In this document: one piece after another, positions 31,879-37,935 of the stretch
How the letters are laid out: each line of letters opens with the position of its first letter
Numbering within the stretch: the first letter of the stretch is position 1
NCBI RefSeq assembly: GCF_009684755.1
Contig: NZ_BLBC01000003.1
Span: forward strand, 52,104-116,103
Direction of reading: 5' to 3'
DNA from: Capnocytophaga felis
GTDB taxonomy: Bacteria; Bacteroidota; Bacteroidia; Flavobacteriales; Flavobacteriaceae
DNA length: 64,000 nucleotides
The notes under the pieces: model-generated
Databases searched by the model: none
Told to the model about the DNA's origin: nothing
What the model saw: the letters and a program-made list of their open reading frames with translations, nothing else
Translations under genes and position numbers: made by a program

Positions 31879-33003
31879 ATGAAACGAATGAATGTAATTA
31901 TGTTGTTATTTGCAACGGCTATTTTCTGCAGTTGTAAATCACAAAAAACTTCTAACTTAGGAGACGGATTATTTGCTGATATTCAAACCAATAAAGGCAA
32001 TATCGTCATAAAACTTAATTATAAAGAAACGCCCGTTACGGTGGCAAACTTTGTAACATTGGCTGAAGGCACAAACTCTTTTGTTAAAAGTGAATTTAAA
32101 GGTAAACCTTATTACAATGGCGTAATTTTCCATCGTGTTATCAAGGATTTTATGATTCAAGGTGGTGACCCAACAGGAACAGGAATGGGCGACCCTGGTT
32201 ATCGTTTTGAAGATGAATTTATTGATCACTTAAAGCACGATAAAAAAGGAATTCTTTCAATGGCAAATGCCGGTCCTGCAACCAATGGTAGCCAGTTTTT
32301 TATAACTCACGTGCCAACTCCTCATTTGGATGGCAGACATACCGTTTTCGGCGAAACTGTTGAAGGTTTGGAGGTAATTGACTCCATTGCCAATGTGGCT
32401 ACTGCAGAAGCGAACAGACCTATTGAAGATGTGAAAATTAGCAAAGTATTGATTATCCGCAACGGAAAAGAAGCTGAAAAATTCAACGCTATAAAAACCA
32501 TTGAAGATTATTTTGCCAATGCAGAAAAAAGAGAGAAAGAAAAAGAAAATAAAATTAAACAAGCTGTAAATTCTTTCTTAGCTCAAGTAAAAGAACAAGA
32601 GCCTAAGGCTAAAGTTCTTCCTTCTGGAGTAAAAATTTTCACTCTAAAAGAAAGTAATGGAGAAACTCCTAAACACACACAACAAGTTCTGGTAAATTAT
32701 GCAGGATATCTAACTGACGGTACGTTATTTGACTCAAATGTAAAACAAGTTGAAGAAGCTTTCGGAAAATACAACATAGCTCGCGACAGAGGCAATGGAT
32801 ACGCTCCAATTCCTATGCAATACAGCAAATCTGCACAATTAATCCCTGGGTTTAAAGAAGCTTTACTTACTTTAAAAGTAGGAGAAAAAGCACGTGTTTT
32901 TATCCCTTCTGCCTTAGCCTACGGAGAAAGAGGAGCTCAAGGAGTTATTCCACCAAATAGCGATTTAATTTTTGATATTGAAGTTGTGGGAATCGCACAA
33001 TAA
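31879..33003 (+). CDS. Cyclophilin-FKBP fusion peptidyl-prolyl isomerase lipoprotein
   Basis: The 374-residue protein has a lipoprotein signal (FCSC, Cys19), an N-terminal cyclophilin domain (about 32-195, with [20 protein letters not shown] and [19 protein letters not shown]), a charged linker (about 203-250), and a C-terminal FKBP domain (about 255-374, with [18 protein letters not shown] and [12 protein letters not shown]). Both domains catalyse proline isomerisation, so it is a dual-family immunophilin of the cyclophilin-first type. It probably works in the periplasm on exported proteins, next to GldI. A strong terminator follows at 33084-33110. Confidence 0.92.
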
Positions 33004-33083
33004 AAATACAATCTTTTTGAATACAAAAACAGTGTGATTTTAGTTATCACTAAAAAATAAATTGCACTACAATAATATTTCCA

Positions 33084-33110
33084 AAAAAACGCTACAATGT
33101 AGCGTTTTTT
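33084..33110 (+). terminator. Rho-independent terminator after the cyclophilin-FKBP gene
   Basis: Perfect stem AAAAAACGCTAC / GTAGCGTTTTTT with a 3-nt loop, about 80 bp after the stop codon and before the AraC gene. Confidence 0.9.
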
Positions 33111-33181
33111 CATTTTTGAACTATCTTTCACGTATCAGAACTTTGGCTAAAACATTGTATCTTTGCTAAAAATATGAAATT

Positions 33182-33985
33182 TTGCAATCACTTTTGAACA
33201 TACGTCATTTTTACAAACCTTTTCAGCCAGTATCTCAACTCGCTGATAATGTTTCTTATACGGAATTTTTCCCCGATAAAAAACTATTGCCTTTCATCTA
33301 CTGCTATTGGCAATTTAAAACAAAAACACAACTTACTGAAAACTATCAATATAGAGTGATTTCCGACGGTTGTATTGATGTCTTTTTTGAATTAGAAAAT
33401 CCCGAAGAAAGTTACCTTATGGGCTTTTGTAAAAGTTATACCGAATTTCCGTTAGGTAAGCAATTTAACTATGTGGGAATTCGATTTTTACCTTCTGCTT
33501 TTCCACTAATTTTCAGACAAAATGCCAAAGAATTGAGCAATAATGACATTCGTTTGAATTTGGTTTTATCCGGTTTAGCAACATTTATTGCTCATAAATT
33601 CGACAATGTGAAAAATATGAAACAGATTAAAAATGAATTAGATAAATTCTTTCTTAAACATTTGGAAAAGGCTGATTTGAGTATGGACAACCGATTTTAC
33701 AAAGCCTTGGAAATCATCTTAAAATCACAAGGTAACACACGTATAATCAAAGATTTAGATACGGGAATTAGCCCTCGTCATCTCCGCCGATTGTTTGAAT
33801 TTTACATTGGCGACACTGCAAAAACTTTTAGTCAAGTAGTTCGTTTTCAGTCTTTTTTGAAGGCTAAAACTTCTAATCAAAATAATGATAATCCATCATT
33901 TTACGATATGGGTTATTACGACCAATCGCACTTTATCAAAGAATTTAAAGCTTTTTATGGAGAAACACCGAAGAAGATTTTGTAA
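33182..33985 (+). CDS. AraC-family transcriptional regulator
   Basis: The 267-residue protein has an N-terminal sensing region (about 1-150, with FIYCYWQF and VISDGCIDVFFEL, as in DUF6597-type AraC proteins) and a C-terminal two-helix-turn-helix domain (about 175-265, with SPRHLRRLFEFYIGDTAKTF and DMGYYDQSHFIKEFKAFYG). The open frame begins at a TTG (33182) and the true start is uncertain. A -7 element TATCTTTG at 33158-33165 supports a start in this region. In related genomes such regulators often pair with small VOC-type genes; the VOC gene at 36278 may be its original neighbour, now separated by the reverse-transcriptase cassette. Confidence 0.85.
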   Translation: MQSLLNIRHFYKPFQPVSQLADNVSYTEFFPDKKLLPFIYCYWQFKTKTQLTENYQYRVISDGCIDVFFELENPEESYLMGFCKSYTEFPLGKQFNYVGIRFLPSAFPLIFRQNAKELSNNDIRLNLVLSGLATFIAHKFDNVKNMKQIKNELDKFFLKHLEKADLSMDNRFYKALEIILKSQGNTRIIKDLDTGISPRHLRRLFEFYIGDTAKTFSQVVRFQSFLKAKTSNQNNDNPSFYDMGYYDQSHFIKEFKAFYGETPKKIL

Positions 33986-33994
33986 AAATTATGC

Positions 33995-34020
33995 TTGAGA
34001 TATAAAAAAATGTAATTTTG
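33995..34020 (+). promoter_or_regulatory. Promoter of the reverse-transcriptase cassette
   Basis: TTG at 33995-33997, then after 15 bp TAATTTTG at 34013-34020, 38 bp upstream of the first start codon. It fits the -33/-7 pattern with slightly short spacing and shows that the cassette has its own promoter right after the AraC stop codon. Confidence 0.55.
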
Positions 34021-34057
34021 CAGGAAGAAACTTTCTTACTAAAATTAATGAAAACAA

Positions 34058-34654
34058 ATGATATTAAGAAATTTAACAAATATTTACGATAATCTAAAAT
34101 TGAATAAAGAAACATACTATCTATTTAATTTTGTCAAAAACAAAGTTTGTTTTGAAGTCTTATTTGATATATTCCCCACTCCTTTTCAATTACATTTTTT
34201 ACAAAGAGAGAATAACTTTTCATTTCATATAGATGTTGAAGTAAATTTTAAAATAAATCTCTTTTTAGATTCTCAAACATATAGAGGGCTTTGTGAAGTT
34301 TTAGGATTATCTTTATCAAAAAATAATCCTTTTAGTACAAAATCTTTTTTTGAAGAATTCAATTTAAATATCCCCAATTACCAATTCAGAAAAAAAGAAG
34401 AAAGAGAATTATTAGCATTCTATCAGAATGATATAGAAGAAGCAGATAAACTTTATTTCGACGGAGTTATAGAGTGGAATAAAATAAAAAATGGTAAAAA
34501 AGTAACTTATAAAAATCTTGAAAAAACTAGAATTCTATATCCTAAGCTCTATGACTGGTGTAAAAGAGAAAATGTGAGCATACGATACACTCACATTGAG
34601 AAAAATGATGAAAAACATTTAATAGAAGAAACAATACAGAGGATTACTGGTTAG
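34058..34654 (+). CDS. Uncharacterised partner protein of the reverse transcriptase
   Basis: This 198-residue protein is not confidently placed in a family. It has no signal peptide or membrane helix. The first half is rich in Phe and beta-type patterns (YYLFNFVKNKVCFEVLFDIF), the middle has GLCEVLGLSLSKNNPFST, and the C-terminus is charged (YPKLYDWCKRENVSIRYTHI). It is very AT-rich and precedes the reverse transcriptase by 18 bp with the same base composition, so the two form a two-gene unit. By analogy with other defence reverse transcriptases it may be an effector or a cofactor. That is inference only. Confidence 0.75.
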   Translation: MILRNLTNIYDNLKLNKETYYLFNFVKNKVCFEVLFDIFPTPFQLHFLQRENNFSFHIDVEVNFKINLFLDSQTYRGLCEVLGLSLSKNNPFSTKSFFEEFNLNIPNYQFRKKEERELLAFYQNDIEEADKLYFDGVIEWNKIKNGKKVTYKNLEKTRILYPKLYDWCKRENVSIRYTHIEKNDEKHLIEETIQRITG

Positions 34655-34672
34655 ATATGCTGAATCAGAAAT

Positions 34673-36211
34673 ATGAAACCTTATTACAAATTTTATGAAG
34701 AAATAGATGAAGATAAACTATTTAAGGGACTTTTAGCTTTTGGTTTATTTTCCGAAAAAATACCCAACTTTCTATCATCAGAAAAGTTTTTTGAGTATAT
34801 AAAAACAAAAAAATTTCCATATGGTGATAAGAAACCAACAGATTATATAAGATATTCAAATATGAGGAATATCAATATTCCCCGACCTTTATCCATTCCT
34901 GATCCATTTTCGTATGCTAATCAGGTTAAAATAATAAAACAAAATTGGGTAAAAATTAAAGAGCATTTTAAAACAAAGAGTAATAACCAAAATCATAAAG
35001 TAAGCAGGATTCATATAAGAAACCTTTATGATAAGGAATCTCTATTTGAAATGAATTATAAAAACTTTGAAGACGATGGTAATCCTGAAAATAAATTATT
35101 TATAAAAAATAAATATGTTATAAATGTAGATATATCAAATTGTTTTCCAAGTATTTACAGTCATTCTATTTCTTGGGCTCTAATAGGCAAAAATATCGCT
35201 AAACAACAAAGTGGTAAAAATTTTGAAAATGAATATTTTAATCAAATTGATTTTTATACTCGTAATTTAAAATTTGGAGAAACTAATGGAATTTTAATAG
35301 GACCACATTCATCAAGTATTATTTCAGAAATAATTTTGTGTTGTATAGATTATGAGCTATGCAAATTAGGATATAAATTTTACAGAAATATTGATGATTA
35401 TATTTGCTATACAAACTCTTATGCAAAAGCTGAAAAATTTATTATAGAGATAACCGAAGAGTTGAAGAAATATGAATTGTCTCTAAATAGTAAGAAAACA
35501 AAAATAACAAAACTACCTCAAGCGAGTGTTACTAATTGGGTAGCACAGCTTAATCACTATTATTTTAAGGATGAGTATCATACTATAAATGGAAAAATAG
35601 GGTTAAAATTATCAGAATTAAGAAATTTCATTGATTATTCTGTAAAAATTATGACAGAAAATGATAATAACTCTGCTATTTTAAATTATATGATAAAGAT
35701 GCTCTCTAATAAGCATTTAGGAAGCAAAGCTAAGGAGTATTATATTGATAAAATTCATCATTTAGTGTTGTTGTTTCCTTATTTAGTATTAGTGTTAGAA
35801 AAAGATATTTTTGAGAAACATAATATAGGTAAAGAAAAAATTAGAGAAATATCGGAAGATTTATACGAACAAGGTAACATTCGAAAAAACCATGAAATTT
35901 GCTCCTATGTTATATATTTCTCACTAAGATATAAGTTTCGATTAAGTGATAAGATTTCAAATAAACTAAAGGAAGATTCTATAAATTCGAGTGATTGTAT
36001 TTTTTTAATATTAGCATATCTTTATGATAAAAAATATCGGGATAAGAAATATTTAAAAGAATACAAAGATTTAGCAATAGAGTATTATAATGATGATTTT
36101 GGTAGATATTGGTTATTTTGTTATGAAGTTTTAACTCAGAATGAATTAAAAAATCACTATAAAGATTTAAAGAAGAATAAAGTAAGTTTTATTTTAAATG
36201 AATTTTTATGA
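34673..36211 (+). CDS. Abi/UG-type reverse transcriptase, putative anti-phage protein
   Basis: The 512-residue protein has polymerase motifs in order: an N-terminal RT block with NIPRPLSIPDPFSYANQ (68-84), motif A NVDISNCFPSIY (151-162, Asp153), motif B NGILIGPHSSSIISEI (205-220), motif C FYRNIDDYICY (236-246, Asp241-Asp242), and the following KKYELSLNSKKTKI (265-278). After about residue 290 it is a long helical region with no recognised nuclease. There are no group II intron maturase (X/thumb, HNH) features and no retron-like msr-msd region in the 72 bp upstream. This layout fits the Abi/UG defence reverse transcriptases; the exact class cannot be assigned by eye. The gene is much more AT-rich than its flanks, which suggests transfer. 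Confidence 0.85.
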   Translation: MKPYYKFYEEIDEDKLFKGLLAFGLFSEKIPNFLSSEKFFEYIKTKKFPYGDKKPTDYIRYSNMRNINIPRPLSIPDPFSYANQVKIIKQNWVKIKEHFKTKSNNQNHKVSRIHIRNLYDKESLFEMNYKNFEDDGNPENKLFIKNKYVINVDISNCFPSIYSHSISWALIGKNIAKQQSGKNFENEYFNQIDFYTRNLKFGETNGILIGPHSSSIISEIILCCIDYELCKLGYKFYRNIDDYICYTNSYAKAEKFIIEITEELKKYELSLNSKKTKITKLPQASVTNWVAQLNHYYFKDEYHTINGKIGLKLSELRNFIDYSVKIMTENDNNSAILNYMIKMLSNKHLGSKAKEYYIDKIHHLVLLFPYLVLVLEKDIFEKHNIGKEKIREISEDLYEQGNIRKNHEICSYVIYFSLRYKFRLSDKISNKLKEDSINSSDCIFLILAYLYDKKYRDKKYLKEYKDLAIEYYNDDFGRYWLFCYEVLTQNELKNHYKDLKKNKVSFILNEFL

Positions 36212-36252
36212 AGAATGTCCCTTTTTTCCTATTTTAATTTCATTACTCTCCA

Positions 36253-36260
36253 TAATTTTG
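36253..36260 (+). promoter_or_regulatory. -7 promoter element of the VOC gene
   Basis: TAATTTTG, 18 bp before the ATG at 36278. It shows that the longer open frame from 36215 is not the real start and marks the right edge of the reverse-transcriptase cassette. Confidence 0.55.
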
Positions 36261-36277
36261 CCCCAATTCAAACAAAT

Positions 36278-36736
36278 ATGAAGAAATTATTTTTAGGGAT
36301 TCTTATATCTTTTGTGAGTATAAGTTGTTATAAATCAAATAAAAATTCAGAAAAAATGAAATTAAACGCAGGAATTATCACCGAAAAATTGGCAGAAACT
36401 AAAGCCTTTTATACCGAAATTTTAAACTTTGGCGTGAGCTTCGAAAACGAATTTTACCTTTTGCTCCACACACCCAACCGAGAGGCTGAAATCAGTTTTT
36501 TGCTTCCCAACCACCCGAGCCAACAGCCTATTTTTCATCAACCGTTTCAAAATAAAGGTGTTTATCTAACCATTGAAGTAGAAAATGTAGATGAAGTTTA
36601 TAAGGAACTGAAAAACAAAAATATTCCGATTGAGATTGAATTACGAGACGAACCTTGGGGCGACCGCCATTTCGCCATTAAGGACCCCAACGGCATCGGA
36701 ATAGACATAGTAACTTATTCAGAACCTGATAAATAA
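36278..36736 (+). CDS. VOC (glyoxalase/dioxygenase) superfamily protein with lipoprotein-like N-terminus
   Basis: From ATG 36278 the protein has 152 residues: a short signal-like segment (MKKLFLGILISFVSISC) followed by one VOC domain with TEKLAETKAFYTEIL, ENVDEVYKELKNKNIP and HFAIKDPNGIGIDIV. VOC proteins include glyoxalases, dioxygenases and fosfomycin/bleomycin resistance proteins. The substrate is unknown. The Met at MKLNAGIITE inside the frame could instead be the start of a cytoplasmic form, since a lipoprotein VOC is uncommon. Base composition is back to normal here, unlike the reverse-transcriptase gene just before. Confidence 0.75.
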   Translation: MKKLFLGILISFVSISCYKSNKNSEKMKLNAGIITEKLAETKAFYTEILNFGVSFENEFYLLLHTPNREAEISFLLPNHPSQQPIFHQPFQNKGVYLTIEVENVDEVYKELKNKNIPIEIELRDEPWGDRHFAIKDPNGIGIDIVTYSEPDK

Positions 36737-36740
36737 AAAA

Positions 36741-36768
36741 ATAGAGACGCCAAATATGGCGTCTCTAT
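36741..36768. terminator. Bidirectional terminator
   Basis: Perfect 11-bp stem ATAGAGACGCC / GGCGTCTCTAT with a 6-nt loop and an A-run on the left, between the convergent VOC and PGA_cap genes. Confidence 0.8.
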
Positions 36769-36840
36769 ACATTCGTATCAATACAAATCTAATAATCAAT
36801 TGCTTATATCAAGTGATATATTTTTCTATTCCGATAAATT

Positions 36841-37935
36841 CTATTTTTCTTGAACTAAGATATTGTTTTTAAACAAGTTTCGTGAATTTTCAATAAAAAT
36901 ATTCATTGATTCTGTTGCTTTTTCATCTAAATCTTTGAAGTTTTCAGATTCATACTCCTTACACGGAAGTATTTCAAAAAGATGATGTTTACTGTTGATT
37001 TTCTGGGTTTTATTTACCCAAACCAAATGATAACCGTGGTCAATAATTTGAGTTGTTTGTCCGTCCTTGAACAATTTTATTTCCAACATCGCACCGCCAT
37101 CACAAGGACTTTTTCGCTGATTTGAAACAAAATTTCCTAAAGAATATGCTACCAAACGTTCGTTATGCAAGCTTGTCATCGGGGTGTAATACATTGGTTG
37201 CAAAACGTGTGGATGCCCTCCAACAATTATATCAACTCCGTTAGAAAATAAAAAATCCGCAATTTCTTCCTGCTTTTTATTCTGTTTTTGCTGATATTCC
37301 ACTCCCCAATGAATTACCACAATTAGTTTATCAAGATTTTGCTCCTTTGCCTTTTCTAAATCTAATTTAATATTCTCTAAATCAATCAAATTCACTATGG
37401 TAGGTTCAGGAATAGGCAAACCATTTGTGCCATACGTATAATTTAAAATCCCGACAGTTATTCCATTTTTTGACAAAATTAAAAGATTATTTTCATCAAA
37501 ATCTTCTTGATTTCGGAAAGTTCCTGTGTGAGCTATTTCAAGCGAGTCTAAAACATCTAAAGTCCTGATTATTCCGTTTTTACCTCTATCACACGAATGA
37601 TTATTTGCCGTAACGAATACATCTATTCCGCTTTCCTTGCAAGCAACTGCCAAGGCATCGGGCGACGAAAATTGTGGATATCCCTTATAAGGTTTTCCTG
37701 CCAAAGTTACCTCCAAATTAGCAATTGCAAAATCAACCTTTTCAAATAAATGTTTCACTTTTTCAAAAACAGGCTGATAATCATAGGTTTTTGTTTCAGA
37801 ATTATATGCTCCGTCAATTTGCGGATTGTGCCCCATTACATCTCCCATAAACAAAAGAGACATTGTATTGCCTGATTGCTGAGCATTTATCTTGAAAACA
37901 AAGATTAATAGTAGTGAAAAAAAGATTTTTCTCAT
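36841..37935 (-). CDS. PGA_cap (CapA/PgsA-like) metallophosphoesterase-fold protein
   Basis: The 364-residue protein has a signal peptide (MRKIFFSLLLIFVFKINAQ) and the PGA_cap domain with FMGDVMGHNPQ (about 29-39), FAIANLEVTLAG, ANNHSCDRG, VVIHWGVEYQ and VGGHPHVLQP. Family members were first linked to poly-gamma-glutamate capsule synthesis, but most lone homologues have unknown substrates. The open frame extends 14 codons further to 37977; the ATG at 37935 is preferred because it begins the signal peptide. It is transcribed away from the YeeE/YedE genes. Confidence 0.85.
   Translation of the reverse strand: MRKIFFSLLLIFVFKINAQQSGNTMSLLFMGDVMGHNPQIDGAYNSETKTYDYQPVFEKVKHLFEKVDFAIANLEVTLAGKPYKGYPQFSSPDALAVACKESGIDVFVTANNHSCDRGKNGIIRTLDVLDSLEIAHTGTFRNQEDFDENNLLILSKNGITVGILNYTYGTNGLPIPEPTIVNLIDLENIKLDLEKAKEQNLDKLIVVIHWGVEYQQKQNKKQEEIADFLFSNGVDIIVGGHPHVLQPMYYTPMTSLHNERLVAYSLGNFVSNQRKSPCDGGAMLEIKLFKDGQTTQIIDHGYHLVWVNKTQKINSKHHLFEILPCKEYESENFKDLDEKATESMNIFIENSRNLFKNNILVQEK

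Follow-up and report, generated by a model that had tools for sequence, protein, structure and literature searches.

A DRT4-class reverse transcriptase gene preceded by a DUF6037 gene at a variable AraC-VOC site in Capnocytophaga felis

Introduction

DRT4 is described in two reviews (PMC13213688, PMC13314766) as a single-gene system whose reverse transcriptase is tyrosine-primed and produces random single-stranded DNA (ssDNA) without a template. According to the same two sources, phage ORF55 guards the 3' end of the DNA made by DRT4, and toxic DNA then accumulates. One phage protein is reported to activate both DRT4 and DRT6 (PMC13213688).

Here we analyze a reverse transcriptase (RT) cassette of Capnocytophaga felis. 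It lies in a stretch of 64,000 nucleotides (contig NZ_BLBC01000003.1, positions 52,104 to 116,103 of the forward strand), referred to below as the window, in a 2.9-Mb assembly of 37 contigs. An initial annotation had proposed that an Abi/UG-type RT, likely anti-phage, is preceded here by an unrecognized 198-residue protein that may define a new subtype. Profile, fold and tree analyses place the RT in DRT4, in line with the first part of this proposal; the second part fared less well, as described below.

Results

Layout and composition of the cassette

Both open reading frames of the initial annotation, of 198 and 512 residues, are present on the + strand, with 18 nt between the stop codon of the first and the start codon of the second. 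The features of the locus are as follows.

33182-33985, + strand: AraC-family regulator (DUF6597 and HTH_18), left flank, outside the cassette; identified by Pfam and by relatives in sister genomes
34013-34020, + strand: TAATTTTG, candidate -7 promoter element for the cassette, by its match to a consensus
34058-34654, + strand: DUF6037 protein (PF19503), 198 aa; Pfam 77.8 bits, E 1.5e-21
34673-36211, + strand: DRT4 (UG15) reverse transcriptase, 512 aa; identified by PADLOC, fold and tree
36209-36220, + strand: TGAAGAATGTCC, right junction, with the RT stop codon at the position of the AraC stop in six empty sites
36216-36232, + strand: TGTCCCTTTTTTCCTAT, element before the VOC gene, also in sister genomes; possible AraC operator
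36281-36736, + strand: VOC/glyoxalase gene, right flank; Pfam Glyoxalase 55.6 bits, and relatives

The cassette had been described as strikingly AT-rich, and this holds: at 24.6% G+C for the DUF6037 gene and 23.9% for the RT gene, in a window of 36.4%, these are the two lowest of the 48 non-overlapping ORFs of at least 150 aa in the window. The 2154-nt cassette stretch lies at z = -3.0 relative to stretches of the same length taken every 50 nt. The proposal that the cassette has its own promoter, and that the VOC promoter begins just after it, is matched by two candidate TAATTTTG boxes, one at 34013 and a second at 36253, ahead of the VOC gene. We take this box to be of the Bacteroidota -7 promoter type; by composition, an estimated 0.1 matches or so are expected per 100 nt. 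The VOC ORF as listed starts at 36215, and the likely promoter box at 36253 falls inside this longer ORF. The N-terminal stretch of the window VOC protein (36281-36356) resembles a lipoprotein signal when judged by eye; the VOC ORFs of sister loci L150-L154 are without it and start with MKLN.

The reverse transcriptase belongs to DRT4

Profile scores, a tree and the predicted fold show that the RT is a member of DRT4 (UG15), a class already known. In PADLOC the RT is nearer to DRT4 than to every other UG/Abi class, scoring 671.8 bits with Drt4, 275 with the runner-up class Drt6, 134.7 with AbiK and 116.1 with AbiP2. A sequence search of the PDB returned UG15/DRT4 chains as the top matches (E 1.6e-52). 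When an AlphaFold model built from 27 sequences (pLDDT 87.3) was compared with PDB folds, 9l9s, 9vdo and 9vdv occupied ranks 1-4 with TM-scores, by query length, of 0.77-0.81; the UG15 crystal structure gave 0.80-0.81, and DRT4 cryo-EM structures were also among the best matches. In a tree of 33 proteins, in which 28 of the 44 DRT4-relative loci described below are represented, a group with 100/100 support comprises the RT and eight DRT4 relatives, these being from Bacteroidota and Acinetobacter. Within this group the RT is the first branch, in a tree rooted with other RTs on long branches.

Against the NCBIfam Drt4 equivalog model NF041749, the RT scores 391.7 bits, below the cut-off of 450, which marks it as a diverged DRT4. 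The missed cut-off makes it less certain that the RT functions as the tested DRT4 does, and its activity could differ. With the profile, fold and tree evidence all pointing to one class, we nonetheless file the RT as a DRT4 homolog. All 27 proteins of the RT alignment match the NCBIfam Drt4 model at E 0.001. The catalytic residues D153, D241 and D242, which the initial annotation had called intact, are indeed so in the RT and are invariant across this alignment, which comprises the window protein and proteins from 26 of the 44 loci; the remaining 18 loci, which were cut, broken, near-duplicate or not chosen, are absent from it. The nearest relative of the RT (L048, 63% identity) has a broken frame and was omitted.

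Compared with the DRT4/UG15 structures 9l9s, 9vdo and 9vdv, the RT has the same fold over its whole length at 29-30% identity, the same catalytic residues and, in its model, the same succession of RT domain and helical C-terminal region. It differs in its score under the NF041749 cut-off and in the DUF6037 gene directly upstream, which is absent from all the other DRT4 loci compared. DRT6 has a similar fold (TM 0.77, 22% identity) but a distant profile (275 bits vs. 672 for Drt4), and AbiK (TM 0.67-0.68) and Abi-P2 (TM 0.55-0.56) are related polymerases with far lower profile scores.

No Rfam family reached its gathering score in positions 33000-37000 of the window, in agreement with the earlier statement that no retron RNA or intron features were seen; two sub-threshold matches in this interval (E 0.066 and 0.39) are far below gathering and are neither intron nor retron.

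Two further RT systems of defense type are present elsewhere in the same genome. Contig C7 carries a Drt3a-Drt3b pair (L095, 4801-8462; PADLOC 324.5 and 570.9 bits), and contig C12 carries an Abi-P2 RT (L002, 994-2553; PADLOC 624.2 bits) with a 315-aa ORF 15 nt upstream that has no PADLOC match.

The AraC-VOC insertion site

In six genomes of the genus (L155, L156, L159, L160, L161 and L162), the AraC and VOC genes are directly adjacent with no ORF between them, and these empty sites bear out the clean insertion that had been suggested. All six empty sites read AGAATGTCC after the TGA stop of the AraC gene. The window has the same letters after the TGA stop of the RT gene, which places the right edge of the insertion at that codon, to the base. 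The AraC proteins of these six genomes are 52-53% identical to that of the window, and those of G201, G204 and G206 are 82% identical; the six are thus not the closest by AraC and do not fix the state just before insertion here. Across 20 genus genomes, the VOC protein was matched in 17 and the AraC protein in 18, several of these being weak paralog matches. In G201, the two flanking genes are separated by about 21 kb and are oppositely oriented.

Other genes fill the AraC-VOC gap at five loci of four sister genomes, L152 and L153 belonging to one genome. A DNA-alkylation-repair-like gene is found there in L150 (by Pfam) and in L151 and L153 (by ORF likeness). The gap of L152 holds a cNMP-binding gene, an ATC-hydrolase-like gene, the same DNA-alkylation-repair-like gene and a type IIG restriction system, and that of L154 holds KwaA/KwaB of Kiwa, with a short KwaA frame, together with PRTase-CE and NADAR genes. 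A full-length DRT4 match occurs in one of the 20 genus genomes, that of the window itself; in G201 the match is partial and falls within a frame of 767 aa.

An element of the type GTCC(C/G)TTTTTT precedes the VOC gene in the window, where it is matched once against 0.1 expected, and in sister loci. It may be the binding site of the AraC protein. L150, L151 and L153 have a similar element ahead of their DNA-alkylation-repair-like gene.

The upstream gene encodes a DUF6037 protein

The 198-residue protein is not unrecognized, as had been stated, but is a member of Pfam family DUF6037, with a match that spans residues 1-187 and scores 77.8 bits vs. a gathering cut-off of 28.8. It has no match in PADLOC, NCBIfam or PHROGs, and the word DUF6037 was not found in the literature searched. 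The family is rare: of 395 genomes sampled from the phylum of the window, 2 had a match over the cut-off, the C. felis genome included, as did 3 of 398 from the phylum of an Exiguobacterium genome (G635, L065) and 1 of 398 from the phylum of an Acinetobacter genome (G622, L051). It is present in Bacillota, Pseudomonadota and Bacteroidota, and a plasmid collection yielded 21 records, eight of them from Enterococcus. Neighborhoods were compared at 18 DUF6037 loci outside the C. felis genome, namely 12 of the 21 plasmid-collection records (one of them chromosome-sized), L092, L167 and L178-L181; L178 is only 2.6 kb long, and the match at L181 (39.6 bits) is partial.

This distribution bears on whether DUF6037 is itself a defense gene, directed against phages or rival mobile elements, in which case the cassette would consist of two separate defense systems. 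Such a role is suggested by the 15 of 21 plasmid records typed as conjugative or mobilizable, but this plasmid share is partly due to the plasmid collection having been searched, and plasmid cargo has many other roles. Two loci (L092 and L167) sit among virion, tail and lysis genes (PHROGs), but just one of the five loci that come from genome samples is among phage genes. DUF6037 was absent from all 50,697 INPHARED phage records, which indicates that its carriage by phages is not common, and viral contigs gave one locus only. Both nearest ORFs of at least 100 aa are on the opposite strand at 8 of the 18 loci, three of the eight being Enterococcus plasmids. Phage "moron" genes typically lie on the strand opposite to their neighbors, and the orientation of DUF6037 is in this manner. 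In sister species, furthermore, the cargo of the window site includes Kiwa and a type IIG restriction system. PADLOC, for its part, has no model that matches DUF6037, and it matched none of ten neighboring proteins at six DUF6037 loci elsewhere, so that the surroundings there do not argue for defense. We regard a defensive role of DUF6037 as a real possibility, if somewhat short of an even chance.

DUF6037 is not a conserved partner of DRT4

When the DRT4 alignment was scanned against one genome per species from 84,980 species, 44 loci were obtained with proteins 30-63% identical to the RT. A home-made DUF6037 HMM, which recovered all six sequences it was built from, found no DUF6037 at any of the 44 loci among ORFs of at least 60 aa in flanks of up to 5 kb. 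Less than 2 kb was present upstream at six of these loci (L052, L056, L060, L075, L081 and L089); the matches at L089 and L091 are short and partial, and L081 and L082 stem from separate pieces of one genome. Likewise, no DUF6037 was returned when 39 genomes of DRT4 relatives were searched in full, in a run that contained no positive match of any kind; it omitted L056, L082, L083, L085 and L090, the genome of L082 being that of L081. DUF6037 was also absent from all five DRT4 relatives on viral contigs. In the reverse direction, none of the 18 other DUF6037 loci has a UG/Abi-type RT within the DNA fetched, the sole RT signal being a group II intron maturase/RT about 3 kb away on an Enterococcus plasmid. 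The DUF6037-DRT4 pair is thus particular to the window locus as far as these collections show. With an RT of known class and a partner that is not conserved with it (0/44 loci, 0/39 genomes, 0/18 reverse loci), a two-gene DRT subtype, as the initial annotation had envisaged, is not supported.

These counts also weigh against DUF6037 being a true DRT4 accessory, one that would time the action of the RT by regulating or inhibiting it or by binding its product, as does the report of DRT4 as a single-gene system (PMC13213688). As to the single-gene form, the locus has no Rfam match at gathering score and its relatives are without DUF6037 (0/44), yet an upstream gene is present. The idea survives because the spacing and composition are what a working pair would show: the genes are on the same strand, 18 nt apart, equally low in G+C and contained in a single insertion. 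Such an arrangement is not usual for DUF6037: 17 of the 18 other loci lack any ORF of at least 100 aa in the same direction within 60 nt downstream, and L185 alone has one, at 14 nt. All considered, an accessory function appears unlikely.

Other genes were observed beside DRT4 elsewhere. The Myroides loci L054 (4475-4984) and L055 (4481-4984) have in common a gene for a protein of 167-169 aa directly upstream of the RT, which is 17 nt from it in L055 and overlaps the longest RT frame in L054. The encoded protein carries an R-N-N-L-F-H motif reminiscent of HEPN proteins, and that of L055 has no Pfam or PADLOC match. In several unrelated bacteria (L058, L068, L069, L070, L079, L086 and L087), DRT4 is near ORFs that by eye are restriction-modification-like (methylase- or HsdR-like).

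Finally, an RVT_1 match and a weak group II RT match (Pfam, NCBIfam) might point to an RT of the housekeeping, intron or retron kind that plays no part in defense. This is very improbable given that profile, fold and tree all indicate DRT4, that Rfam has no family at gathering score beside the RT, and that DRT4 occurs in 1 of 20 genus genomes, at a site with defense genes in two sister genomes.

Discussion

The cassette is probably best explained as a DRT4 anti-phage gene and a separate cargo gene, DUF6037, that arrived together at the variable AraC-VOC spot. The counterpoint to separate cargo is the one given above, as two genes of equally low G+C that lie 18 nt apart are arranged as a working pair would be. 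DUF6037 is nevertheless probably no subunit of the RT machine and would rather be stand-alone, perhaps defensive, cargo that acts independently of the RT; from its placement it is likely transcribed with the RT gene.

Given the class of the RT and its intact active site, a DRT4-type mechanism can be assigned to it by analogy with the systems covered in the DRT4 reviews. The RT would probably prime on one of its own tyrosines and make template-free ssDNA of random sequence. In an infected cell, a phage protein that binds DNA would keep exonucleases off this ssDNA, and the resulting build-up would probably be toxic, stopping the cell before the phage matures.

In conclusion, the RT is of the DRT4 class and does not represent a new subtype, and the remaining interest of the locus lies in DUF6037 and in the variable site. 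Attention thereby shifts to a family that was encountered on plasmids and, at two loci, among phage genes, and whose name was not found in the literature searched. A more speculative view, which we consider a long shot, is that DUF6037 is an unrecognized single-gene defense family of plasmids, and at times of phages, that has here been recruited in front of DRT4. It would mark a first step toward an RT system of two components, with a cargo protein modulating an RT whose DNA product is toxic. The AraC-VOC site itself is a small variable spot in these genomes, with changing and partly defensive cargo that can be read against empty sites.
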